Assembly (NCBI GenBank): GCA_937868555.1 | Contig: CALMNI010000062.1 | Span: 1-15,653 of the forward strand | Length of the DNA stretch: 15,653 nucleotides | Source of the DNA: an uncultured bacterium | GTDB lineage: Bacteria; Patescibacteriota; Patescibacteriia; Patescibacteriales; Patescibacteriaceae | Direction: 5' to 3' | Shown here: in pieces, positions 271-15,181 of the stretch | Layout: each line of letters starts with the position of its first letter | Numbering within the stretch: the stretch's first letter is position 1 | Program-made: the position numbers and the translations under genes | Notes under the pieces: generated by a model | Seen by the model: only the letters and a program-made list of their open reading frames with translations | What the model was told of the DNA's origin: nothing | Databases searched by the model: none

Positions 271-1176
271 ATGAAATATCCAGGAATCACATTGGGCAAG
301 ATAGAAGCCCTAATCAACTGTTTAAATGGCATGGAAGTCGTTGACAAGCTGTGCAGCGGCGAATTAACAGTCAGTTTCAAGGGATCAGCTTTGGAAATCA
401 TCGAAGCCCTCAAGAAGCTGTTCGATAAGAACGGCAGAAGAATCCCTGAGAACCTTAAAGCCGCGGTCTGCGACCCGAATTCAGGGTATTTCCTGAAACA
501 GCCAGCCATTGATTATGCAAGAAGCTTTTCGAAAGGATTTGAAGGAACCGGCCTTGCTGCTAACATGTCAGCATCTGATTTCGAAGAAACCGCGAAACAA
601 CTCATTGAAGAGCTTAAAGCGGATGAGCGCACGAAGAATCTCTTAAAGGGAGTCTATCTGCCAATCATCATTCCTCAAACGGAAATTGCTGACCTGGGCG
701 AAGCCGTGGAAGAATTCGTCGGCATGGCTGAAAAGTCATACCGCAAGGAATTCAAGAAGCGCAACTTTACCAATCATCGCAAGAACGACTTAAAAGGAAA
801 AGTTACCGTTGTTGCAGGAAGCCGCTATGAAAAGCTTATAGAAAAGATGCAGAAGGAATCGGTTGTCGGAATCTATTTCCCAAATCCGTTGCAGGGCTTT
901 TCAGTCGATGCTCAGCGCGAGCAAATGGCTGCCTTGCCCGAAGGGTTCAGCTTATCGGGTCCGATAGACACTGCAATGGGCTTTGCGATGTATCCTGAAC
1001 TCTTAGGCAAGGATGCAACTACTCCGGTTTATGACTGCTCAGCCGTACAGTGGCAGTCGTCCGGGTATTCGCTCAACTTCGGCGCCGACGACGACGATGC
1101 GGACTTCGGCAGCGGGTCGAACCTGTCCGATGCCGACGACTACTGCTCCGGCGGTCTGCTGTTCGTCAAGGGGTAG
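271..1176 (+). CDS. DGR target protein with C-terminal variable region
   Basis: This 301-residue protein is diversified by the adjacent retroelement. The start is supported by AAGGAG (255-260) ten bases before the ATG. The variable region is residues 261-301 (Trp261 to the end). Its scaffold reads WQSS.YSLNF...SGGLLFVK, as in C-type-lectin-like DGR targets of candidate-phyla bacteria. The conserved lead-in (MAALPEGFSLSG, then TPVYDCSA) also fits that group. Residues 1-200 are mostly predicted helix, with no signal peptide or membrane segment, so the protein is probably cytoplasmic. Relative to TR the codons changed at Gly265, Gly271, Asp273, Asp276, Asp278, Gly280, Ser281, Gly282, Asp287, Asp289, Tyr291 and Cys292. 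The present VR is very acidic, with eight Asp in 18 residues. The ligand is unknown. Confidence 0.93.
   Translation: MKYPGITLGKIEALINCLNGMEVVDKLCSGELTVSFKGSALEIIEALKKLFDKNGRRIPENLKAAVCDPNSGYFLKQPAIDYARSFSKGFEGTGLAANMSASDFEETAKQLIEELKADERTKNLLKGVYLPIIIPQTEIADLGEAVEEFVGMAEKSYRKEFKKRNFTNHRKNDLKGKVTVVAGSRYEKLIEKMQKESVVGIYFPNPLQGFSVDAQREQMAALPEGFSLSGPIDTAMGFAMYPELLGKDATTPVYDCSAVQWQSSGYSLNFGADDDDADFGSGSNLSDADDYCSGGLLFVKG
1051..1171 (+). repeat. DGR variable region (VR)
   Basis: This 121-base segment, at a constant offset of 482, matches the template repeat at 1533-1653. There are 13 mismatches and no gaps. The VR differs at 1064, 1081, 1082, 1087, 1096, 1102, 1109, 1112, 1114, 1129, 1135, 1141 and 1145. 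TR has A at every one of these sites. VR has G at all of them except 1141, which is T. The last 26 bases (1146-1171) are identical in both copies and GC-rich, the position expected for the initiation-of-mutagenic-homing element. The repeat ends one codon before the stop. Confidence 0.95.
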
Positions 1177-1532: not shown

Positions 1533-1653
1533 TGGCAGTCGTCCGAGTATTCGCTCAACTTCAACGCCAACGACGACAATGCGAACTTCGACAACAGGTC
1601 GAACCTGTCCAATGCCAACGACAACTACTCCGGCGGTCTGCTGTTCGTCAAGG
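1533..1653 (+). repeat. DGR template repeat (TR)
   Basis: This is the invariant donor copy of VR. It contains 31 adenines by my count, 13 of which are substituted in VR. Read in the VR frame it contains ten AAC or AAT (Asn) codons, the usual DGR arrangement that allows many substitutions without creating stop codons. All non-adenine positions are identical in the two copies. Confidence 0.95.
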
Positions 1654-1692: not shown

Positions 1693-2043
1693 CTACGCGG
1701 CCAGCGATTTTTTCCAGCCGCCGAGCATGCGTCCGATCTCCTGTACCATCTCCTGGAGGTGGACGTACTTCTTGAGATCTAGGATCTTCAGCTCGTGCGC
1801 CATCCGGATGAAGAGTTTGAGCGCGTCGAACTTTACGTTGGCCTGCTGGATGTTCGCGAGCTTTTCCGCTTTCGGGACGCTGCTCGCCATGATGACCAGC
1901 TCAAGCGTTTCAAGCAGATAGGCTTCGCATTTCGTCCCGATCATGTGCTTGTCCTTTTTCGGGAACAGGGAGAGGTATTGATAGAATACTTTGTAGAGGT
2001 CGAATAATTTCTTAATAATCGGTATATCGCTCGTATGGATCAT
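1693..2043 (-). CDS. avd: Avd-like accessory variability determinant (four-helix bundle)
   Basis: This is a small basic protein of about 116 residues. It is recognisable as the Avd / 23S rRNA intervening-sequence-type four-helix-bundle family by DIPIIKKLFDLYKVFYQ near the start, FPKKDKHMIGTK, then KFDALKLFIRMAHELKILD and the closing IGRMLGGWKKSL. Avd forms a pentamer that binds the DGR reverse transcriptase and template RNA and is required for mutagenic cDNA synthesis. The reading frame is open back to 2379, but everything upstream is antisense to RT, so I place the start at ATG 2043 (2052 is the alternative). Neither has a clear ribosome binding site. The gene is on the strand opposite to TR and RT, and its 5' end overlaps the RT start. 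Confidence 0.88.
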   Translation of the reverse strand: MIHTSDIPIIKKLFDLYKVFYQYLSLFPKKDKHMIGTKCEAYLLETLELVIMASSVPKAEKLANIQQANVKFDALKLFIRMAHELKILDLKKYVHLQEMVQEIGRMLGGWKKSLAA

Positions 2044-2634
2044 CGTGGTCATAAGTATGAGGAAATAGTTAGCATTAGTAATCTGTTTTCCTGCTGGCAG
2101 GAATTCCGCAAGAACAAGGCGGTCAGGGAGGATATCATGGAATTCGAGCGAAATCTCGAGGACAACGTCTTCCGCCTGCATGAAGACTTGATAGCGGAAC
2201 GGTACGAGCACGAGCCGTATTACAAATTCCATATCTACGATCCCAAGCACCGGATCATCAGCAAGGCGACGGTGCGGGACCGCCTGGCGCACCATATGAT
2301 ATTCAATGAATTGTACGAGGTGTTCGATCAGTCCTTCATTTACCATTCGTACGCTTCCCGGCTGGGCAAAGGCTCTCATCTCGGCGTGGCCAATGTCGCG
2401 CGGGCGCTGAGAAAATCAAGCCTGAATAATGCGCGGACGGTCTATGCCCTGAAATGCGATATCAGGAAGTTCTTCGACAGCGTCGATCACAGGAAGCTCG
2501 AGCAGATAATACAGAAAAAGATTAGCGACCATAGATTCGCTCGTTTGATTAGCAAGATTATCGGCAGTTTCTCTAAAACTGTGGATAACTTTGCGCAGAG
2601 AGAGAGAGAGAGAGAGAGTTGGCTGAGCCCTTAA
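2035..2634 (+). CDS. DGR reverse transcriptase, N-terminal half (frame broken at AG tract)
   Basis: This is the fingers and early palm of a retron/DGR-type reverse transcriptase. Visible features are FHIYDPKHRIISKATVRDR (about residues 68-86), IYHSYASRLGKGSH and LKCDIRKFFDSVDH, which carries the first catalytic Asp. The frame is closed upstream by TAA at 2005-2007, so ATG 2035 is the likely start, although no ribosome binding site is clear. After about residue 188 the frame reads RERERE through an AG repeat and then stops at 2632-2634. The rest of the enzyme continues in another frame from 2619. Alone this product lacks the YADD catalytic motif and should be inactive. A weak promoter (TTGTAG 1991-1996, AATAAT 2014-2019) lies inside avd. 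Confidence 0.9.
   Translation: MDHRGHKYEEIVSISNLFSCWQEFRKNKAVREDIMEFERNLEDNVFRLHEDLIAERYEHEPYYKFHIYDPKHRIISKATVRDRLAHHMIFNELYEVFDQSFIYHSYASRLGKGSHLGVANVARALRKSSLNNARTVYALKCDIRKFFDSVDHRKLEQIIQKKISDHRFARLISKIIGSFSKTVDNFAQRERERESWLSP
2597..2618 (+). repeat. (AG)11 dinucleotide microsatellite inside the RT gene
   Basis: There are 22 uninterrupted bases of AG repeated eleven times. The upstream RT frame and the downstream RT frame differ here by two bases. Ten copies, or thirteen, would join them into one frame, and eleven copies leave them broken. Long pure dinucleotide tracts expand and contract by slipped-strand mispairing, and tracts in coding sequence are a known basis of phase variation. 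The repeat encodes Arg-Glu alternation in a loop between conserved RT blocks, where length changes should be tolerated. Confidence 0.9.
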
Positions 2635-3113
2635 AAGGCTTGCCGATCGGCAACGTAACTTCGCAAATTTTTTCAAACATATATTTGAACGAGTTAGATC
2701 AGTTCGTGAAGCACGGCCTGAGGGAAAAACATTATTTCAGGTACGCGGATGACTTCTTAATTATACACGAGGACAAGAAGCATCTTGAAATGATTCTTGA
2801 AAGGATAGCCATTTTCTTAAGCAGCGCGTTGCGGCTCGAGCTTCATCCGCGCAAGGTAGAGATCAGAAAATACGGGCAAGGGATAGATTTTCTCGGATAC
2901 GTGATCCTGCCGCATCATATCGTTTTGCGGACGAAAACCAAAAAGAGGATGTTGGGTAAGCTTCTAGAAAAACAGGAGCTGCGCTCCCAGGGCCGACTGG
3001 AGGACTTCTCGTATAACCAGAGCCTCCAGTCGTACCTTGGAATGATATATCACAGCGATGGCTACGACCTGCAAACGCTGATAAAAAACAATTTCACTAT
3101 CATCGGGCAATAA
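2619..3113 (+). CDS. DGR reverse transcriptase, C-terminal half (second frame)
   Basis: This is the rest of the palm and the thumb of the reverse transcriptase. It has KGLPIGNVTSQIFSNIYLNE (the IGxxxSQ motif typical of DGR enzymes in place of the usual QGxxxSP), YFRYADDFLI with the catalytic Asp pair, then LELHPRKVEIR and GIDFLGYVILPH. With one AG unit removed the two halves give a 358-residue protein, a normal DGR RT length. It could be translated alone only from TTG 2619, with the GA-rich tract acting as a poor ribosome binding site. That product would lack the first catalytic Asp. The gene ends 35 bases before the terminase stop on the other strand. Confidence 0.9.
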   Translation: MAEPLKGLPIGNVTSQIFSNIYLNELDQFVKHGLREKHYFRYADDFLIIHEDKKHLEMILERIAIFLSSALRLELHPRKVEIRKYGQGIDFLGYVILPHHIVLRTKTKKRMLGKLLEKQELRSQGRLEDFSYNQSLQSYLGMIYHSDGYDLQTLIKNNFTIIGQ

Positions 3114-3148: not shown

Positions 3149-4606
3149 CTAAAGGACTATGATCCTGAACGAGTGAGGCGGGTCTGTCTGCACGCTCAAG
3201 ACGAGGTTCGAGAAGGCATCTGCAAGATCGTCATGCTTCTCGACCCCGAAATGAACGATTTGCTGTATCAGCTCTTCCGCTCCTTTTCTCGGAAAGAGCA
3301 CTTTGCTGGTCTTGATCAGATTGGCCGTGAGCACAAGGCGCGTCCGCTTGTCCTGCATTCCAAGCTTCACGGATTTGACATCGTAGAGCCCTTCGCTTTT
3401 CAATTGCTGGGGAAGAGCCCGCTGGTAGGCGACATCTTCGATGAAGAAGGTGGGATGCCAGCCATCTTTGATATGCATCTTGTTCACTTCCTTGCACATT
3501 TCGACGGTTTCCGGGAATGTCATGCGGCGATTAATAATATTAGGCAGGATGTAAATCTTAGCGCCTACTTCTCCATGTATCAGCGCCGATACGAAAGCGG
3601 TGTAGTCGGCCGTATCGCTTTGGCTTATGGCGAGATCGACGCTCACGCGGATGCTTTTGTGCCGAGGATAATTAAAGGCATCCAGCTCGCTATCATCAGG
3701 CAGCTCGTCGTAGTAATGGATCCATTCGCGGTGGATGGCCTGGTCTTCGGCTGGGACTATCTGGAGAAGGTATTCGCGCTGCCAGGCGTATTCGTTTCCG
3801 GCTTTGCGTTTTTCTTTTTCAATATCATCCATGGTCGGATACTTTCCGGGCCATAATATCGAGCCTCCAGCTACCAGAGGGTACTCCTTGAACACGCCGT
3901 CGATTTTCTTTTTCTCGACGTCTTCCTTGATCCGCATAAGGAGCGAGTCTTCGTGCAGAAGGTTGCCAACTATGACGATCCTGGTATTGCGGTCTCCGGT
4001 AGGAATGACTTCGCCGGTAAACCACTGGTACGTTTTATTGCGCCCTTCGCGCGTCTTGGTCGAGGCGATGTCCTCGACGTCGTCGCCGATGATGAGATCG
4101 GGGCGGTGCTGGTTATGGCGCAGTCCGCGGATGCTCTGGTCGGTTGAGGCGGCGGTGATGCGCGCTCCGCTTTGCGTGAAGACGATGGAGGCCGAACCCC
4201 ACTCGTTCGAGTCTTCCTTGAATGGACCGAGGTCGCGCTTAAGAATGGGATTGTTTTCCAGTTCTCGGCGCAGGTTCATCATATGCTGCTTCGCCTGGAC
4301 CTGCGTCTGGCAGAGTATGAGGACGTATTTCTTCTGAGGCTTGCCGAGGATCGACCATAGCGGGTATGACGTCGTGATGATCGTTGATTTCGCAGAACCT
4401 CGGAAGGCAACGACGAAGAAGTTCTCATCGGCTTCGCTTTCCGTCAGGTCGAACATTTCCTTATGGAACTGCGCGGTCGCGTACTTAACGTAATGCGCGA
4501 AATAGAAATGGAAGAAGTACCAATGGCTTTGCCTAGTTATCGCCACTCGGACTTGCTTGTCCTTGATCATCTGATCCATGAGCTCCTGGGTTATTATTTC
4601 CTTCAT
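3149..4606 (-). CDS. terL: Phage terminase large subunit
   Basis: This is the ATP-driven DNA packaging motor of a tailed-phage-like element, 485 residues from ATG 4606. It has the ATPase half with Walker A AFRGSAKST (67-75) and Walker B LIIGDD (171-176), and the RNase-H-like nuclease half with Asp324 (SVDLA), Glu390/Asp391 (FIEDVAYQ) and Asp459/Asp460/Asp463 (KHDDLADAF). All key residues are present, so it looks intact. ATG 4579 is preceded by AGGAG (4583-4587) and may be the real start. The 4606 start would overlap the upstream gene by 74 bases and shows no such site. It is the last gene of the packaging operon. The usual next gene, portal, is absent, and the DGR lies there in opposite orientation. 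Confidence 0.92.
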   Translation of the reverse strand: MKEIITQELMDQMIKDKQVRVAITRQSHWYFFHFYFAHYVKYATAQFHKEMFDLTESEADENFFVVAFRGSAKSTIITTSYPLWSILGKPQKKYVLILCQTQVQAKQHMMNLRRELENNPILKRDLGPFKEDSNEWGSASIVFTQSGARITAASTDQSIRGLRHNQHRPDLIIGDDVEDIASTKTREGRNKTYQWFTGEVIPTGDRNTRIVIVGNLLHEDSLLMRIKEDVEKKKIDGVFKEYPLVAGGSILWPGKYPTMDDIEKEKRKAGNEYAWQREYLLQIVPAEDQAIHREWIHYYDELPDDSELDAFNYPRHKSIRVSVDLAISQSDTADYTAFVSALIHGEVGAKIYILPNIINRRMTFPETVEMCKEVNKMHIKDGWHPTFFIEDVAYQRALPQQLKSEGLYDVKSVKLGMQDKRTRLVLTANLIKTSKVLFPRKGAEELIQQIVHFGVEKHDDLADAFSNLVLSVQTDPPHSFRIIVL

Positions 4607-5012
4607 ATTGTTCTTGATTAGAATTTGTAAGTTCGGCCGGATTTAATGCCGCCAGCCGGAGGGCTTCCCTGACAACCGCTTCCTGTTCAGGTGTCAGAGT
4701 CTCGTCTTCGATCGAATGCTCGATCTTTAGCTTGTTCGCGTAGCCCGGGTGATGGTTGCGAAGCCAGTACATGATCGCTGGAAGATTGCGATCTTTAACC
4801 GCGCCTATCAACTGGCTCTCCGCAAGATCGTTGACGAGCTTATGGCCGTCGAGGATCGCTTCCTCGGCCTGCTTGGCGAATTCCTTGTCGTCCTCTTTCC
4901 AGCGGTAGTACGTCATTCGGGATATCCCGGCTTTTTGGCAGGCTGCCTCGACGATGGGCGTTTTGCGAAGCTGTTCGATGACGAGCTTTCTTGTCGCTTC
5001 ATTCTTCTTCAT
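4533..5012 (-). CDS. Terminase small subunit-like HTH protein
   Basis: This 159-residue protein is likely the DNA-recognition partner of the large terminase. The N-terminal 60 residues carry a homeodomain-like helix-turn-helix (VEAACQKAGISRMTYYRWKEDD, quoted in part as AACQKAGISRMTYYRW) of the kind seen in phage small terminases. A helical middle is followed by an Asn/Gln/Gly-rich tail that looks disordered. Its ATG overlaps the TGA of the upstream methylase (ATGA at 5012-5009), indicating translational coupling. The assignment rests on the HTH and the position next to terL. Confidence 0.78.
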   Translation of the reverse strand: MKKNEATRKLVIEQLRKTPIVEAACQKAGISRMTYYRWKEDDKEFAKQAEEAILDGHKLVNDLAESQLIGAVKDRNLPAIMYWLRNHHPGYANKLKIEHSIEDETLTPEQEAVVREALRLAALNPAELTNSNQEQYEGNNNPGAHGSDDQGQASPSGDN

Positions 5013-5782
5013 AGTATTTTCGCCTTAAGGCCGGTCAGCTTTTCCCACTGCCTGATCGACGTCAGGCAGTACTCGGGATCGATCTCGCAGGCAAAGCATC
5101 GCCGCTTGGTTTGCTCGCAAGCGAGTAGCGCGGTACCTGATCCCAAGAAGCCGTCGTACACTGTCTCTCCTATCTCCGACGAATTGAGGATGAGACGGCG
5201 GATCAGCCCGACCGGCTTAGTGGTCGGATGCAATTTGCTTTTCGACGGCCGGGGATAGAATAGTACGGACTTATCCTTCGATCTGCGATACTTATGCGTA
5301 CCTTTCCAGCCGTAGGCAATCAGCTCGTGCTGCGGCGCATAGTCGAGCCGCCCGACCACGCTTTGCGACTTTATCCAGATCAGTAGCTGCGCTACCTTGA
5401 AACCCGCGTCTATCATTCCGTCCCTAAGCGGCCAGACCATCTTATCGGCGTTGAAGATATAGCAGCTGTTTTTCTGCGCAAGAAAAGGCGAAACTACACC
5501 CAGCCACTCTCGGTTGAAGGCGCGATACTCTTCATCGGTCTGCAGCTGGTCGTTCGCTATTTCTTTATCTTTGGCGAGCGTCTTGAAGCTGCGTTTCGAC
5601 TCGACTACAGCAACGCCGTACGGAACGTCCGCGCAGATAAGATTTATCTTTTCCTTGTCGATAAGCCGCGCAATAAGCTTCTTGTCGCGACAGTCTCCGC
5701 AGGCAAGCCGATGCTCGCCGAGCTGCCAGATGGTACCAGTCTTAATTGAGTTTCTTGGCTTTGAGGCCGGTGAGTTTTTCAT
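5009..5782 (-). CDS. DNA methyltransferase (N4/N6-type), variant motif IV
   Basis: This 257-residue amino-methyltransferase has the beta-class order. Motif IV comes first (ADVPYG, residues 51-56), then HPTTKP (185-190) and the AdoMet-binding motif I YDGFLGSGTALLACE (209-223). The usual DPPY catalytic motif is DVPY here. The first Asp, the second Pro and the Tyr are kept. It should methylate adenine or cytosine in element DNA, perhaps to evade host restriction. It starts inside the end of the preceding methylase (41-base overlap) and both proteins end in EKLTGLKAK, suggesting a tandem duplication. No restriction enzyme gene is nearby. Confidence 0.85.
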   Translation of the reverse strand: MKNSPASKPRNSIKTGTIWQLGEHRLACGDCRDKKLIARLIDKEKINLICADVPYGVAVVESKRSFKTLAKDKEIANDQLQTDEEYRAFNREWLGVVSPFLAQKNSCYIFNADKMVWPLRDGMIDAGFKVAQLLIWIKSQSVVGRLDYAPQHELIAYGWKGTHKYRRSKDKSVLFYPRPSKSKLHPTTKPVGLIRRLILNSSEIGETVYDGFLGSGTALLACEQTKRRCFACEIDPEYCLTSIRQWEKLTGLKAKIL

Positions 5783-7028
5783 ATCGGTTTATCGCTAATT
5801 GAACGAATATCGGTTCGCGCTCGACTAAATACGCTGACCGCTTTAATTGCTCGCACGCAACCATAAGACTGGCAGAGCCGGAAAACAGGTCAAGAACAAT
5901 ATCGCCGGGTTTGGTGCAGCGGCGCAATGGGCGTTCGTGGATAGAGGGCGGTTTTTCCGTCGGGTGCTGGTAGTCCGCGCCATTGATCCGTTTGGCGAGC
6001 CAGATGTCAAATAGGTCGTAGATGTCGTCAATCGTTTTGTTGCCGCTGCCGATTTCAGGGTTCAGCACCTCTGAGAAGTTGAAAGCTCTGTCCGATAGGT
6101 ACGGCTTTCCGACCGTTCCGTACAGTACGGGCTCGTACTGGCGGTTAAAGCCTACATTGGGCGTTGGTGTGCTGTTATTCTTAATCCATAGGCAGGTGCG
6201 TTTATATGCGATGCCCAACTCTTTATAGATACCTTGCAGCATCCAGGCGTATCGTGTATCGTGATATACGAACACATGAGCGTCTTTCGTGCATACGGAC
6301 AAGCCGTTGCCGATCGCCGCTTTCAGAAACGCTTCATACTCCTTGTCCGACTTGGAATCGTCCACGGTCCCTCCATATGAGCCCTTGCCTCCGATTCCGT
6401 GGTTATAGGAAAGACCTATATTAAATGGAGGGTCAAAAATTAGAGTTGTCGCGCGATCTCCTTTCATAAGTTTCTTGACCGACGCCGGATCGGTACTGTC
6501 GGCGCAGAGAATTTTGTGTTTTCCCAGCTGGTATAAATCACCTAGCCTAACGTTCGTCTTTTTGATTTTCTTCAATTCATCTTCCGGCCGGAATTCGTCG
6601 TCTTCGACGGATACGTCGTCGAAGATCAGGGCGAGATCGCCATCTTCGAATCCGCTGGCGAGGATCGTATCGATATCGAAGTTATCGGCCAGCTTCTGCC
6701 AGTCGAATTCGCCGCTGATTCGGTTGCTCGACAAGAGATATCGGTCGTATTCTTTTTTTGTCAGTTTGCGATTAGGAACCCGAACCGATATGACAGCGTC
6801 GGCCGGACCAATGAGCTTAAGCGCTACCAAGCGCTGGTGGCCGGCAATGACTTTGTTATCCCGGTCGACAACGGGAAGCTCAACCACACCGAAGTCGAGG
6901 AGGCTTTTCTTGAGCGCTGCCATTTGGCGGTCGCTCATCACCCTGGGATTCAGGGCATTGGGCACGAGATCGGAGATTTTCCGAGATTCTGTGCGCCATG
7001 ATAATGCATGTTTTTTCATAAAACGCAT
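5742..7028 (-). CDS. ParB-domain DNA methyltransferase
   Basis: This 428-residue fusion is typical of phages and plasmids. Residues about 15-105 form a ParB/sulfiredoxin-like domain (VIAGHQRLVALK, 60-71). Residues about 165-428 form an N4/N6 amino-methyltransferase with motif IV DPPFNIG (199-205), HPTEKP (355-360) and motif I VLDLFSGSASLMVACE (378-393). It is the first gene of the modification and packaging operon. ATG 7028 is followed by another ATG at 7019. The only AGGAGG on this strand is about 20 bases upstream, inside a GGAGG/CCTCC inverted repeat (7041-7056), too far for normal use. It probably modifies the element's own DNA. Target sequence unknown. Confidence 0.9.
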   Translation of the reverse strand: MRFMKKHALSWRTESRKISDLVPNALNPRVMSDRQMAALKKSLLDFGVVELPVVDRDNKVIAGHQRLVALKLIGPADAVISVRVPNRKLTKKEYDRYLLSSNRISGEFDWQKLADNFDIDTILASGFEDGDLALIFDDVSVEDDEFRPEDELKKIKKTNVRLGDLYQLGKHKILCADSTDPASVKKLMKGDRATTLIFDPPFNIGLSYNHGIGGKGSYGGTVDDSKSDKEYEAFLKAAIGNGLSVCTKDAHVFVYHDTRYAWMLQGIYKELGIAYKRTCLWIKNNSTPTPNVGFNRQYEPVLYGTVGKPYLSDRAFNFSEVLNPEIGSGNKTIDDIYDLFDIWLAKRINGADYQHPTEKPPSIHERPLRRCTKPGDIVLDLFSGSASLMVACEQLKRSAYLVEREPIFVQLAINRYEKLTGLKAKKLN

Positions 7029-9763: not shown

Positions 9764-10237
9764 CTAACTATTAAAGGCTACAGAAAACCCGTACATTCCC
9801 ATACTGCACAATGCCTCTAAGGTTGTTCCCGCAACTTGTGCAGGCACTTCAATATCAGTCGTGCCGGTCGGTGGGAGATTCTTACTGTAGTTAAGAGTCG
9901 GGATCCGCAAGGCAGATGAGCAGTCAAAAGTTGCGCTCGTTTGTATACGTAGAATTGTCGGCACATTCGCCTTAGCAGTAGTCATGCTCGGAGCATATCC
10001 GCCTTTCGCGCTCACTTCTATGATTTGCTTTCCGTCCTCGTTCTTAACATTATTAGCCGATGCTTCGGTCTTGTTCGGAGTAGCATGACTTCCTGAACAG
10101 CCACCTACCGAAGTATTGGAACATGTTGCATATGAAACGCTTTGAGAAGCGGGCTTGCTATCGATATTGACTACGATAAGGATAGCTGCGATCGCAGCTA
10201 TTCCTGCCACGGCGGAAATGATATTTTTCTTGGTCAT
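9764..10237 (-). CDS. Membrane-anchored cupredoxin-like copper protein
   Basis: This 157-residue protein starts with one N-terminal membrane segment (about residues 5-24), so the rest lies outside the membrane. A Cys-containing linker (Cys39, Cys47) leads to a beta-rich cupredoxin-like domain from about residue 70 (IIEVSAKGGYAPSMTTAKAN). It ends with Cys144-Ser-Met146-Gly-Met148, a plausible copper site like that of the EfeO/plastocyanin-type small cupredoxins. It is the last gene of the copper operon, 12 bases after its neighbour. It probably receives or sequesters exported copper. It could instead be redox-active through its Cys residues. Confidence 0.75.
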   Translation of the reverse strand: MTKKNIISAVAGIAAIAAILIVVNIDSKPASQSVSYATCSNTSVGGCSGSHATPNKTEASANNVKNEDGKQIIEVSAKGGYAPSMTTAKANVPTILRIQTSATFDCSSALRIPTLNYSKNLPPTGTTDIEVPAQVAGTTLEALCSMGMYGFSVAFNS

Positions 10238-10249
10238 ACTATAAGTATA

Positions 10250-11278
10250 TTAGAAATTAAATACATGGGGCAAGGCCCCAATAGCAACGAGGCTCGAATA
10301 GAGGTTAAATAGCCCGAAGACTATCACGATCAAGCCGGCTGTTTTAAAGAAGATTCCCGCTCTCAGGCTTTTGCCAATCGTAAGCGAGCTGAAGCTGACA
10401 AGGGCAAGAACGGGCAAGGTGCCGAGCGCGAAGGCAAGCATCGTCAGTCCGCCCGAAAGAAAGCTCCCCGTTGAAAGCGAATAGATCTGCATGGACTGCG
10501 TAAAACCACAGGGCAGGAAGAATGTAATAATTCCGAGAAGAGCCGGTGTCAGCGTATGATTGAATTTCGTAACATTCAAAGCTTTATGCGAAAGAAATTT
10601 CGGCATTGTTGGCGTAAGGAGCTTTGTCCATGGGAAGATATCTAATAAGTTGAGTCCGAGCAGTATCATGACTGATCCGATTAAGACGCTAAGAACAAAC
10701 ATGCCAGTCACCCCCAAAGCGAAACTCGAACCGATCGCTCCAATTACGCCGCCGAGAACAAAGAAGCTAATAATCCGTCCGACATGAAATAGCAACTGTG
10801 GCTTTACTTTGTCGCCAGTTTGCGCGAATGTAGCCGACATCGATAATACCAATCCGCCTACGACTGCCATGCACGTGGACAAGGAAGCAATAATGCCAAC
10901 AAAGAATGCGGTGCCGTATGTTACCTTATCGCTCGTAATAAGATTCACGATACCGAGCTTTTGCAAAAGGATAAACAAAGCGATGAAGCCAAGGGCGATC
11001 GGTACGGCAATCTTAAAGTCTTTCCAATTAACAGAGGTTACGGGTTTGCTAGTTACGACAGTATAGCCATGAGGCTGCAGCGTCTGGCTCAATTGCTCGG
11101 CGATTGTTTCGGGGGAATCGGTATCAAACCTGCCTGTAACTTCAACGGAGCATGTTGCCAGAGTTGCCTTAGCTTTCTCTATCTGAGGCAAGTCCTGTAA
11201 TTCGCTTTCAGTAAGAAGTACGCAAGCTGGGCAGTGCATGCCTTTGACATGGAATGAGTATGTTTTTGTTTCACGCAT
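10250..11278 (-). CDS. HMA-domain DsbD/TauE-like membrane protein
   Basis: This 342-residue fusion has an N-terminal heavy-metal-associated domain (GMHCPACV, metal ligands Cys16 and Cys19) and six or more membrane helices of the DsbD_2/UreH-like (often annotated sulfite exporter TauE/SafE) type. The helices carry Cys136 (STCMAVVGG) and Cys257 (FFLPCGFTQ) at the positions of the DsbD cysteine pair. It likely moves copper or reducing power across the membrane together with CopA and the cupredoxin. It starts one base after the copA stop and is translationally coupled. The substrate is inferred from context. Confidence 0.82.
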   Translation of the reverse strand: MRETKTYSFHVKGMHCPACVLLTESELQDLPQIEKAKATLATCSVEVTGRFDTDSPETIAEQLSQTLQPHGYTVVTSKPVTSVNWKDFKIAVPIALGFIALFILLQKLGIVNLITSDKVTYGTAFFVGIIASLSTCMAVVGGLVLSMSATFAQTGDKVKPQLLFHVGRIISFFVLGGVIGAIGSSFALGVTGMFVLSVLIGSVMILLGLNLLDIFPWTKLLTPTMPKFLSHKALNVTKFNHTLTPALLGIITFFLPCGFTQSMQIYSLSTGSFLSGGLTMLAFALGTLPVLALVSFSSLTIGKSLRAGIFFKTAGLIVIVFGLFNLYSSLVAIGALPHVFNF

Positions 11279-11279
11279 A

Positions 11280-13553
11280 TTATAGTTTGGCGTTCTTAAG
11301 CCTCAGAGAATTAACCACTACGGTAATGCTTTCAAAGGCCATAAGCGCACCGGCAACCGCCGGACTGAGCGTCCAACCGTAGAATGGGAACAGGATACCG
11401 GCGGCAATCGGAATGCCAATGGAATTATAGCCAAACGACCAAATAAGATTCTGCCAGATCGTTCGGTTGGTCTTGCGGGCCAGATTAAGCGCTTCGGCAA
11501 CTTTGCCGATATCGCCGTTAAGAAGGACGATATCCGAACTCTCAATCGCAATATCAGAGCCGTTGCTCATGGAAATGGCCACATCCGCTTGGGCAAGAGC
11601 CGGAGAATCATTAACGCCGTCGCCGATCATCGCAACTTTTAAGCCTTCTTTCTGCAAGTCAGAGATAATCTTCAGCTTGTCCGCAGGCTGCACATCGCTA
11701 AAGACTTCGCTGATGCCAAGCTTGTGGGCGACTTTTTCACTTGTCTTCTTATTATCGCCGGTCGCCATGATCATTCGCAAGTTCAATTTTTTGAGCTTGG
11801 CGATTTCCGCTGCCGCCGTTTGCTTGATGGTGTCGTGAATCTTAATGAGCGATAATACTTCTTTCTCACTAGCTAAGTAAAGCTCGCGGCCGCTTGCAAA
11901 GCGGTCAGTATTAAAATTATCCCTGATGTGCTTGGGCGTAAGGCCAGTGGCTTCCGAAACAAAATCAATTGAACCAAGATAATAGGCCATGCTCTTATAT
12001 ACTCCAGTCATGCCCTTGCCGGGAATCTCAGTTACCTTCTTAAGCGTTAGCTCTGACGTTTCATGTTCCTCTAGCCACTGCCTCATGCTTTGGGAGATCG
12101 GGTGGTGCGACGCTTTGGCAAGCGACAGGGCAAGCGAACGCTTGAAAGCAGTTTCTTCAATGTCGCAGGCATGATCCGTGTCTTGGCAAAAGATTCCTTC
12201 AATAGAGAGCTTGTTTTCCGTGAGCGTTCCGGTCTTGTCAAACACAATCGCCTGCACTTTGGAAAGCTTTTCAAGGCTCTCGGCGTTCTTAATCAGGATG
12301 CCGCGGCGAGCGCCTGCGCCTACCCCCGTAATGATCGCTGTTGGCGTGGCAAGGCCAAGCGAGCAGGGGCAGGCAATGACCAATACTGCCATCGTTGAAG
12401 ACAAGGCCAAAGCTATAGCGCGATCAAGGCCAAGGCTGCCGGGGCCGAATACCAGCCACGCGATTATGGTTATCAACGCCAGCACTAAAACGACGTAGAC
12501 AAATACGCCCGAGATTTTGTCAGCGATCCGTTCAATCGGCGCTTTTGAGCTTTGCGCGCTTTCTACAATCGAGATGATATGTGCTAAAGCGGTTTGGGTG
12601 CTGTCTTTCTCAACCTTAATCTTGAGCAAACCCTGAAAATTCTGCGTTCCGGCAAATACAGTGTTACCGATAGTCTTATCGACAGGAATGGATTCCCCTG
12701 TAAGGTTCGATTCATCAAGGCTACTGCTGCCGTATACAATTGCGCCGTCTATCGGCACTCGCTCGTTGGGCTTGATGATCACGATATCTCCGACCGTAAC
12801 TTGCTCAATTGGCAATTCAAGTTCTTTGCCATTTCTCTCAACCAGCGCCGACTTACTGGATAGCTCAGCCAGCTTTTTGAGCGCCTCGTTGGTTTTCCTC
12901 TTAGCCTTAGCTTCAAGGTGCTGGCCAAAAGCGATAAGTCCGATCACGACAATAACGACGTCATAAAAGTTGGAATGGACATCCAAGTAGCGGGATAGCG
13001 GCACTTCAAAGGCGGTTACCGCAAAGGAATAGATAAAAGCGACAACCGTTGAGATGCCGACGAGCGTATCCATGCTGGCAACGCCGGTCTTCAGAAATAT
13101 CCACAATGAGCGGATATAGCGGCGGCCGATGCCGAACAAGACGAAGGTCGCGAATATCGGCATGAGATGATGAGCCGCTTCGTATACGGTCTCGCTCATC
13201 GGATCAATCAGGTTGTTTTGCGCCAGTACTTCCCATGCCATCATGGCAAAGGAAAAGATAATCATGGGAATAACGAACTTCATCTCAAAGGCCATTTTCT
13301 TCTCATGGCTGTCAGGCGAGCCTTTTGCGTCCGCTGAAACCGCATTGGTATCCACCAAGCTGTATCCAAACGGAGTAATCGCGGCGTTGAGCGTATCAAA
13401 AGCCACAGGCCTGTCCGCAAAGGCAACGGTCGCCTTTTGGGCAGGCAGGTTAACCGAAACCTTATCTATGCCGGCAAGCTTGCCTATGTTTTTCTGGATC
13501 AGGGAGACGCAGCTGGCGCAATGCATTCCTTTGACGCTGTAGGTTTGTTCCAT
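11280..13553 (-). CDS. copA: Copper-exporting P1B-type ATPase
   Basis: This 757-residue pump has one N-terminal heavy-metal-associated domain (GMHCASC, Cys12/Cys15), the membrane metal site CPC (395-397), actuator TGES (285-288), phosphorylation loop DKTGT (439-443), the HP motif at 484-485, TGD (598-600) and hinge GDGVND (644-649). The YN pair at 709-710 fits the Cu(I)-specific P1B-1 group. The last helix reads MAFESITVVVNSLRL, where most Cu(I) pumps have MxxSS, so the third metal-binding site is altered. The gene begins 3 bases after csoR. Expected role: ATP-driven Cu(I) export from the cytoplasm. Confidence 0.95.
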   Translation of the reverse strand: MEQTYSVKGMHCASCVSLIQKNIGKLAGIDKVSVNLPAQKATVAFADRPVAFDTLNAAITPFGYSLVDTNAVSADAKGSPDSHEKKMAFEMKFVIPMIIFSFAMMAWEVLAQNNLIDPMSETVYEAAHHLMPIFATFVLFGIGRRYIRSLWIFLKTGVASMDTLVGISTVVAFIYSFAVTAFEVPLSRYLDVHSNFYDVVIVVIGLIAFGQHLEAKAKRKTNEALKKLAELSSKSALVERNGKELELPIEQVTVGDIVIIKPNERVPIDGAIVYGSSSLDESNLTGESIPVDKTIGNTVFAGTQNFQGLLKIKVEKDSTQTALAHIISIVESAQSSKAPIERIADKISGVFVYVVLVLALITIIAWLVFGPGSLGLDRAIALALSSTMAVLVIACPCSLGLATPTAIITGVGAGARRGILIKNAESLEKLSKVQAIVFDKTGTLTENKLSIEGIFCQDTDHACDIEETAFKRSLALSLAKASHHPISQSMRQWLEEHETSELTLKKVTEIPGKGMTGVYKSMAYYLGSIDFVSEATGLTPKHIRDNFNTDRFASGRELYLASEKEVLSLIKIHDTIKQTAAAEIAKLKKLNLRMIMATGDNKKTSEKVAHKLGISEVFSDVQPADKLKIISDLQKEGLKVAMIGDGVNDSPALAQADVAISMSNGSDIAIESSDIVLLNGDIGKVAEALNLARKTNRTIWQNLIWSFGYNSIGIPIAAGILFPFYGWTLSPAVAGALMAFESITVVVNSLRLKNAKL

Positions 13554-13556
13554 ATG

Positions 13557-13820
13557 CTATTTGCGCTTTAGGCGGTAGACTTTGAGAATTTCGGCTTGGG
13601 CCTTTTTCTCTTTTCCTTGCTTTACCTGGTTTACTACGCAATTAGTGAGGTGGTTTTCCATGAGCACGTCCTCAACGCCCGACAGAGCCTGCTTAACGGC
13701 AGAGGTCTGGGTAATGATATCGATGCAGTAGGCGCTCTTGGTCACCATGTCTTGCAGGCCGCGCACTTGGCCTTCAACGATCTTGAGACGGTTAAGGAGT
13801 TTTTTCTTGTCTAGTTTCAT
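13557..13820 (-). CDS. csoR: CsoR-family copper-sensing repressor
   Basis: This 87-residue all-helical repressor of the CsoR/RcnR/FrmR family has the copper ligand set Cys32 (AYCIDI), His57 (ENHL) and Cys61 (TNC), which separates Cu(I)-sensing CsoR from the nickel and formaldehyde relatives. It should release DNA when it binds Cu(I). First gene of the copper operon, so it regulates itself together with copA. GGGAG lies 3 bases before ATG 13820, and the predicted transcript start is only a few bases upstream, so the leader is extremely short. Confidence 0.92.
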   Translation of the reverse strand: MKLDKKKLLNRLKIVEGQVRGLQDMVTKSAYCIDIITQTSAVKQALSGVEDVLMENHLTNCVVNQVKQGKEKKAQAEILKVYRLKRK

Positions 13821-13861: not shown

Positions 13862-15181
13862 CTATTCTACTGAAACTACCTTATTAGCAATTTTTATTCG
13901 TGATTGGAGAAAACCCATTAACTCTCTTTTTTCCTCATTTGATCCTTCTTTCAAGATATATTTCATATACACCTTCAGATCAATATCCGTATGCTTGGCA
14001 TTAGGATCGCTCTGTTGCAGTACTCCTCTTTGGAACTTGTTGAATCGTTTCAGTTCATCTTCAAATTTATGCTGGATGCCCTTTTGATTAAAGTCCATTT
14101 TGTCTATCAGTTGTATTAGCTGGCTGATAAGTTCTTCTTCCCGTAGATAACTGTTCTTACAAAATCTATCTTTGCCACGCCCGCATCCATAATAGATATA
14201 TTTTGTTACGGTGCCATTCTTTAGTTGCTTGTATTTTTCCTCGGCGCATATGGATGATCCGCATAAGCCGCAGATAAGTAGTCTCGTGAAGGCGAATTCC
14301 TTACTTTGCTTTATCATATGATCTCGCGACAGCCGTTTCTGTACCTCGTCAAATAATTCTTTGGTAATAAGCGGCTCGTGTTTTCCTTGGTACCAGTTGC
14401 CCGAATTCTTGGGATATTCAAAGACACCGTAGTAGAAGGTATTGGTTAATGCTCGGTAGACGTTACCGAGGGAGAAGTCGTGGTTACTGATCGTTTTGAA
14501 GTTCAGCTCGAACTTGAGCCAGTGGTATATCTTTCGTCCGGACCATTTATCGTATCCGACTTTTTCAAACATGCTCTTGATGATGTGAGCACGCTCTGGA
14601 TCAAGTATTGGCATGCACTTACGATCCATGAGTCGCTGACTTAGGTAGCCTGTCGGCGGCTGGTTTGGCCATAGCCCCATTTCTACTCGTGTTCTAATTC
14701 CTCGTTTCACGTTAACACCTCGATTATCGTTTTCAAGCTTGGCTTGCGAGCCAAGGATCATGAGAAGGAACTTTTCATTAGGCGAGTTGGTGAAGCGTTG
14801 GCCATAGGTTCGTATCTCTTTAAGGATGCCAGCGTCCATAAGATCAACAACCTTTCCAAGGTCGCCAGCGTTTCTCGATATGCGATCCGGTGCCCAGGTC
14901 AGGATGCCGTTATACTTGCCGTCCTTTATCTCGTTGATAATTTCATTAAAAACCGGCCGCTGGCCGGTTTCTTTGGCTGAATGGGATTCCCGCTTCATGC
15001 AGACAATCTCGAGGTTCTCTCGTTCGGCTAGCTGGAGCATCTCATTAACTTGGCTATCTATGGATAGCACCTGCCGTTCTTCCGACTCTGTGCTCTTACG
15101 CGCGTAGAGGCAGTACTTAACAGGTATTTCTGAAGTGCTAGGTACAGCACCAAAGCGCTGGGTCGTCAAAGGCTGTTGCAT
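13862..15181 (-). CDS. Large serine recombinase / integrase
   Basis: This 439-residue site-specific recombinase is the likely integrase of the element. The resolvase-type catalytic domain begins at YCLYARKSTE (catalytic Ser30, with Arg28) and continues through LTWAPDRISRNAGDL with its conserved Arg residues. A recombinase DNA-binding domain (about 175-285, PPTGYL to GVFEYP) follows. A zinc ribbon comes next (CGLCG near residue 311, then GCGRGKDRFC), and a coiled-coil-like helical tail (LIQLIDKMDF onward). All domains of a large serine integrase are present. No ribosome binding site is obvious before ATG 15181, and the 21 residues before the first strand could be shorter in reality. The gene ends where the copper promoter begins. 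Confidence 0.92.
   Translation of the reverse strand: MQQPLTTQRFGAVPSTSEIPVKYCLYARKSTESEERQVLSIDSQVNEMLQLAERENLEIVCMKRESHSAKETGQRPVFNEIINEIKDGKYNGILTWAPDRISRNAGDLGKVVDLMDAGILKEIRTYGQRFTNSPNEKFLLMILGSQAKLENDNRGVNVKRGIRTRVEMGLWPNQPPTGYLSQRLMDRKCMPILDPERAHIIKSMFEKVGYDKWSGRKIYHWLKFELNFKTISNHDFSLGNVYRALTNTFYYGVFEYPKNSGNWYQGKHEPLITKELFDEVQKRLSRDHMIKQSKEFAFTRLLICGLCGSSICAEEKYKQLKNGTVTKYIYYGCGRGKDRFCKNSYLREEELISQLIQLIDKMDFNQKGIQHKFEDELKRFNKFQRGVLQQSDPNAKHTDIDLKVYMKYILKEGSNEEKRELMGFLQSRIKIANKVVSVE

Follow-up and report, generated by a model that had tools for sequence, protein, structure and literature searches.

The (AG)11 repeat that separates the two halves of a DGR reverse transcriptase (RT) in the window, the whole stretch of 15,653 nucleotides analysed here, is probably a phase-variation (contingency) repeat and one case of a recurrent Patescibacterial design. 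From the sequence data we put the probability of this reading at about 0.85. An earlier note on the same DNA had proposed a contingency microsatellite that reversibly gates the RT. The gating is supported by tracts that recur at related RTs, by linker tracts found in all three phases with no other stop in the RT halves, by three different repeat units at one spot within a single clade and by a second record of the gene whose tract appears to differ in length; that the switching is reversible is an inference.

The DGR of the window and its interrupted reverse transcriptase

The window is a single contig from an assembly of 1.016 Mb in 202 contigs that is 94% complete. Contigs from two genomes of the same order have tract flanks that match exactly those of records deposited as Candidatus Falkowbacteria (L005 with L081, L006 with L077), which places the host in Patescibacteria. 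A full DGR occupies its left end, with the following features.

271-1176, plus strand: DGR target gene, 301 aa; no Pfam, NCBIfam or PHROGs match
1051-1171, plus strand: VR, at the 3' end of the target gene; forms a 121-bp pair with TR
1533-1653, plus strand: TR; 13 mismatches with VR, 13/13 of them at A of TR
1693-2043, minus strand: avd, head-to-head with the RT gene, ATG at 2043 and a further in-frame ATG at 2052; NF033474 DivGenRetAVD 88.8 bits (cut-off 80, scanned as 1693-2046); phrog_3206 Avd protein of DGR
2035-2634, plus strand: RT N half, a 199 aa frame with the blocks up to the first catalytic Asp, ending shortly past the tract; PF00078 E 9.4e-09, phrog_1423 reverse transcriptase E 3.8e-55
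2597-2618, plus strand: (AG)11 tract in the RT linker, 100% pure; proposed slip switch
2619-3113, plus strand: RT C half, from GLPIGN and YADD onward, in a different frame, with a TTG at 2619; PF00078 E 6.8e-13, phrog_1423 E 5.4e-52

The DGR-like RT, the TR-VR pair with mismatches at A and an Avd above the NF033474 cut-off together mark this locus as a DGR, and the 5' ends of avd and RT overlap. The changes from TR to VR are 12 A to G and one A to T, which is strongly biased for a process that should give all bases.

The two RT halves match PF00078 over positions 8-107 (N half) and 117-205 (C half). They lie in differing frames, the frame change is located at the AG tract and the aligned parts of both halves are free of stops, so that the halves are, as the earlier note had claimed, out of register only at the repeat. 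The motif KCDIRKFFDSVDH, which we take to hold the first catalytic Asp, belongs to the N half, and YADD, presumably the catalytic block, to the C half; the placing of the two on opposite sides of the tract is thus confirmed. The frame arithmetic, by which ten or thirteen repeats would give a full enzyme of 358 residues, is also correct.

The repeat had been placed in a loop between conserved blocks, and the structure predicted for a close relative agrees with this. P0002, a natural RT of full length whose tract is shorter, is 91% identical over 76% of the query. Its model (mean pLDDT 80.7, 19 sequences) has two stretches below 50, one of which, 152-159, contains the repeat of P0002, and the linker is predicted as a low-confidence coil. 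The closest solved fold to this model is the BPP-1-type DGR RT structure PDB 8ub7 (Foldseek E 4.6e-18, TM 0.68, 29% identity), and profile comparison also finds the DGR RT structure (8ub7 and kin, E 2.6e-61). Palindrome-like inserts are seen in the RT linker of the relatives L011 and L007, the latter with a stop there as well, suggesting that the linker loop takes inserts in general.

A simple-sequence contingency locus is expected to hold a long pure repeat beyond chance, and this is what was found. The expectation for (AG)11 was 0.00 in 200 dinucleotide-preserving shuffles of the window, and a pattern search shows it to be the sole AG tract of at least seven units in the genome, which excludes a general excess of AG repeats there. 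Poly-G tracts of at least 9 number six in the genome and none is on the RT contig.

The contig resembles a provirus or some other mobile element, because both terminase subunits, large and small, and two DNA methylases, of which one has a ParB-like part, lie next to the DGR on the opposite strand (3149-7028) and a serine recombinase is found at 13862-15181. Between these, on the minus strand (9764-13820), is what we take to be a copper-handling block of a P-type ATPase, a membrane protein with a metal-binding domain and a small CsoR-like regulator. No match was found when the window was compared with phage records by megablast, and searches of viral contigs with the RT C half and with an exact 20-mer at the tract did not find the window's gene.

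Slip-prone tracts at two places in related DGRs

Tracts are present at DGR RTs in other genomes too, so the window is not a special case. The nearest RTs in 61 genomes had seemed repeat-free, with a short variable linker from SF to GLPxGN, but a search of the same genomes for AG tracts overturned this. It gave 24 tracts in 12 genomes, of which 6 are inside or just ahead of a DGR RT: that of the window, and tracts ahead of the RT in G042, G043, G046, G051 and G024. Poly-G tracts of at least 9 are more numerous (127 tracts in 42 of the 61 genomes), and 10 are just ahead of an RT (8 seen, 2 judged by distance). AG tracts followed by GTA are also seen near the starts of other genes at L031, L039, L038 and L040 (genomes G043, G017, G035 and G026, respectively), all from the same order as the window and some with signal-peptide-like sequence; judging by these, other genes in this order may also be phase-variable.

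We surveyed related loci twice. The first survey compared the full RT profile with genome contigs, which favours whole RTs, and gave 80 loci, most with Patescibacterial names. With thresholds of 9 for single-base runs and 14 nt for pair repeats, a repeat is present in 42/80 loci (39 in the 5' zone and 3 in the linker). The RT body (74.7 kb) has 0 such tracts and the remaining 716 kb has 11. Among viral contigs, 2/11 of the closest (L121-L131) have a tract, and a search for a second copy of the L131 tract returned its own contig only. No tract was found in the 62 distinct viral-contig RTs among L132-L200, which are mostly less than 42% identical to the query.

The second survey used the RT N half alone as the query, which makes it blind to the linker, and covered 380 genomes of the same class of Patescibacteria. 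From 150 listed matches one duplicate was dropped, leaving 149 distinct RTs among the matches listed. A slip-prone tract (G of at least 8, or AG/GA/CT of at least 12 nt; A and T runs were left out) is present in 104 of these 149: in the 5' zone in 86, in the linker in 18, in both in none and in neither in 45. Many of the 45 hold a shorter tract, for example a G7 run in the 5' zone or, in the L232 linker, 8 nt of AG. The 86 listed 5'-zone tracts are G (78) or GA/AG (8), and the 18 listed linker tracts are AG/GA (9), G (7) or CT (2). There are 86 tracts in 28.4 kb of 5' zone and 18 in 10.2 kb of linker among the matches listed, in comparison with 17 in 701 kb of the flanks of L041-L120 at the same thresholds; the density at the two places is therefore approximately 70 to 125 times that of flanking DNA. 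Within the RT body a single tract was found among the matches listed (L264), in 130 kb. The chance of finding no RT with both tracts among the 149 listed is small (p 3.7e-8, uncorrected for kinship).

Tracts were also seen elsewhere around the RT. Near or past its 3' end they occur in L107, L226 and L268 (same contig) and in L264 near +926, and in L082 and L103 near +1100; these are G9-10 and GGAT/TGGA repeats of 40-44 nt, perhaps a third switch place. Ahead of the RT there is a CCTGT repeat of 49 nt in L068 (Daviesbacteria) and a CT repeat of 29 nt in L119 (Microsaccharimonas), so the feature extends beyond the class of the window.

At the 5' place the tract may act on two divergent genes. 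An opposite-strand open frame begins at the tract in 79 of the 86 loci, the remaining 7 having no avd-like frame. Ten of the 79 frames were taken at random, and NF033474, the Avd model, hits all 10 with E 2e-14 to 2e-21; none of the hits reaches the 80-bit cut-off, which is unsurprising since the tract truncates the sequences. The avd start is on the far side of the tract, in frame in 32/79 and not in 47/79, 7 of the latter having an ATG further in. With ATG as the only start codon counted, an ATG that precedes the tract is in frame with the RT at 21 of the 86 loci and not in frame at 16; another 43 have an in-frame ATG past the tract and 6 have no ATG on either side. This suggests that at 43/86 loci the RT is ungated and avd alone is gated. 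Avd is required for the DGR of phage BPP-1, so that a switch at the avd junction would serve equally well. The proportion of avd frames that are on (32/79) does not depart from one in three (p 0.19), whereas that of 5' RT frames (21/37) is above it (p 0.0045), suggesting that the 5' RT class is not free-running.

A tree was built from the RT N halves by a quick method with SH-aLRT support. The window falls in a clade of 11 (SH-aLRT 97) in which the linker tract is AG in 5, G in 3, CT in 2 and absent in 1. The minimum number of changes on this tree is 5 between linker and not linker, 21 between tract and none, and 9 in the unit among tract bearers. Taken together, the tract density, the exclusion of one place by the other and the swaps of unit within one clade point tentatively to the repeats being retained by selection, with kinship not fully corrected for.

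Tract length, reading phase and other explanations

Repeat number should differ between close relatives and should set the reading frame, and both are seen. Where the tract flanks of two loci are 80-89% alike, tract length is unequal in 7/11 non-identical pairs. The protein P0001 equals the window RT over 194/194 residues and then continues with RVG where the window has SWLSP. Its tract is read as 12 units, in comparison with 11 in the window, a value inferred from the protein and the window flanks; P0001 may come from related data. The RT C half is found on another contig as P0221 (identical at 162/164 positions). As for frame, the 18 linker-tract RTs among the matches listed are in frame in 5 and in the other two phases in 7 and 6, so that the in-frame share does not depart from the one in three that a repeat free to vary would give (p 0.80).

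The best of the other explanations, albeit an unlikely one, is an assembly or sequencing slip: the true length in the cell would be in phase and the recorded frame an artefact. Repeats are the likeliest places for indel errors and the source is a MAG of many contigs, so that a slip confined to the copy in the window has some small probability. An error cannot, however, create the tract or make it recur at two places. P0001 and the window give unequal lengths from separate contigs of 2977 and 15653 bases, and off-phase records are numerous. The search with the RT N-frame protein found 527 proteins, and by a rough pattern the 120 of these that were listed comprise 41 full-length proteins, proteins that end at the linker in an RE tail (35) or a GG tail (21), 5 with other endings and 18 that are short or irregular. 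This pattern misfiles a few, P0069 being full-length yet filed as truncated and several of the short proteins ending in GGG.

It is very improbable that the gene is decaying, with the AG repeat as its first or an incidental lesion. The N frame of the window does end shortly past the tract, and a few relatives are otherwise broken: RTs without a tract are in frame in 45/45 and have a stop in the N half in 3/45, and the halves of 5'-tract RTs are in frame in 82/85 and out of frame in 3/85, while the C half has a stop in 3/85. Against decay, stops were sought in the aligned N and C halves of the 18 linker-tract RTs and none was found, and a simple pattern finds YxDD in 17/18 (the exception, L238, is on-frame). 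Frame breaks between the halves go with the linker tract, being present in 13/18 of this class in comparison with 3/130 of the others with a C half (Fisher p 2.8e-12, uncorrected for kinship).

The TR-VR pairs also argue against decay, all 13 mismatches in the window being at A. Among the linker loci, mismatches at A number 188/199 in the off-phase class (a pair was found in 11/13 loci, including the window) and 73/79 in the in-phase class (5/5 loci). Pairs with fewer than 75% of their mismatches at A were discarded by the search, so that systems without the bias are invisible to it; under this setting no pair was found in 2/13 off-phase linker loci (L384 and L396) or in 20/80 of the loci L041-L120. 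This shows that off-phase DGRs retain the A bias wherever a pair is found, not that none has lost it.

Just as improbable is programmed ribosomal or transcriptional slippage, in which a fixed share of events changes frame to give a low and steady level of full RT. Pure repeats are known slippery sites and leaky readthrough in the off phase is possible, but a programmed site would be expected to keep one constant frame relation, and the 18 linker loci are spread over all three. AG, G and CT tracts at the same linker spot, and other tracts at the starts of avd and RT, do not fit this either. Both decay and a constant programmed frameshift, which the earlier note had listed with the assembly slip, are therefore a poor fit.

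Least credible is a split enzyme whose halves are made separately and then assemble: the TTG at 2619 in the window overlaps the end of the N frame and would allow re-initiation, but among the 13 off-phase linker loci an ATG precedes GLPxGN in the C frame in only 2 and there is no ATG, GTG or TTG in 6, and the in-phase relatives are one chain.

Proposed switch and known systems

Under the phase-variation reading, slipped-strand copying in the living cell would alter the number of AG units. With a length in one phase, the RT would be made as a single uninterrupted chain and the DGR would work. In either of the other phases translation would end within the linker loop, short of the catalytic YADD block, and the DGR would be off; a return to phase would make the switch reversible. 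More generally, a poly-G, AG/GA or CT tract in the RT loop would gate RT, and one placed where the starts of avd and RT overlap could gate avd, RT or both. The benefit may be bet-hedging on when the target is mutated, with selection for a random on-off state.

The contingency loci of Neisseria, Campylobacter and Helicobacter, as described in the sources available to us, likewise have a pure mono- or dinucleotide tract in or near the start of a frame, the length of which shifts the frame. In contrast, those cases gate surface, modification or restriction genes, whereas here the hypermutation machinery would be gated, as judged from DNA sequence. The Patescibacterial DGRs of Roux et al. (2021; PMC8144416; DGR clade 2, to which this RT may belong) have in common with the window the RT, Avd, TR, VR, A-specific TR-VR mismatches and host group. 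They differ in that here the RT or avd frame is interrupted, or preceded, by a slip-prone tract. The survey of Roux et al. retained RTs of 250-550 aa, a filter that would pass over many off-phase halves. In PMC8778435 and PMC10053308, 'phase variation' is the result of DGR action or a change of the host surface. We found no phase-variable DGR that works through simple repeats in the literature searched, which left out preprints and most subscription papers, and within this scope the view that a repeat-switched hypermutation system is undescribed holds. DGRs and contingency repeats are each known; a contingency-gated DGR enzyme or cofactor would be new within the literature searched.

We consider it likely, though with less confidence than for the reading of the repeat given at the outset, that the Patescibacterial DGR is under a random genetic switch in which differing tracts have repeatedly settled at two alternative places, and in which one tract can set the phase of two genes. 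A minority of cells would then have hypermutation on, and two layers of chance-driven variation would be present in some of the smallest known genomes. If this is true, it offers an answer to the question of when a costly targeted mutator is active and how many cells run it. Surveys that demand a full-length RT would then miss many DGRs that happen to be in the off phase, and a truncated RT or avd annotation in Patescibacteria ought not to be read as decay.
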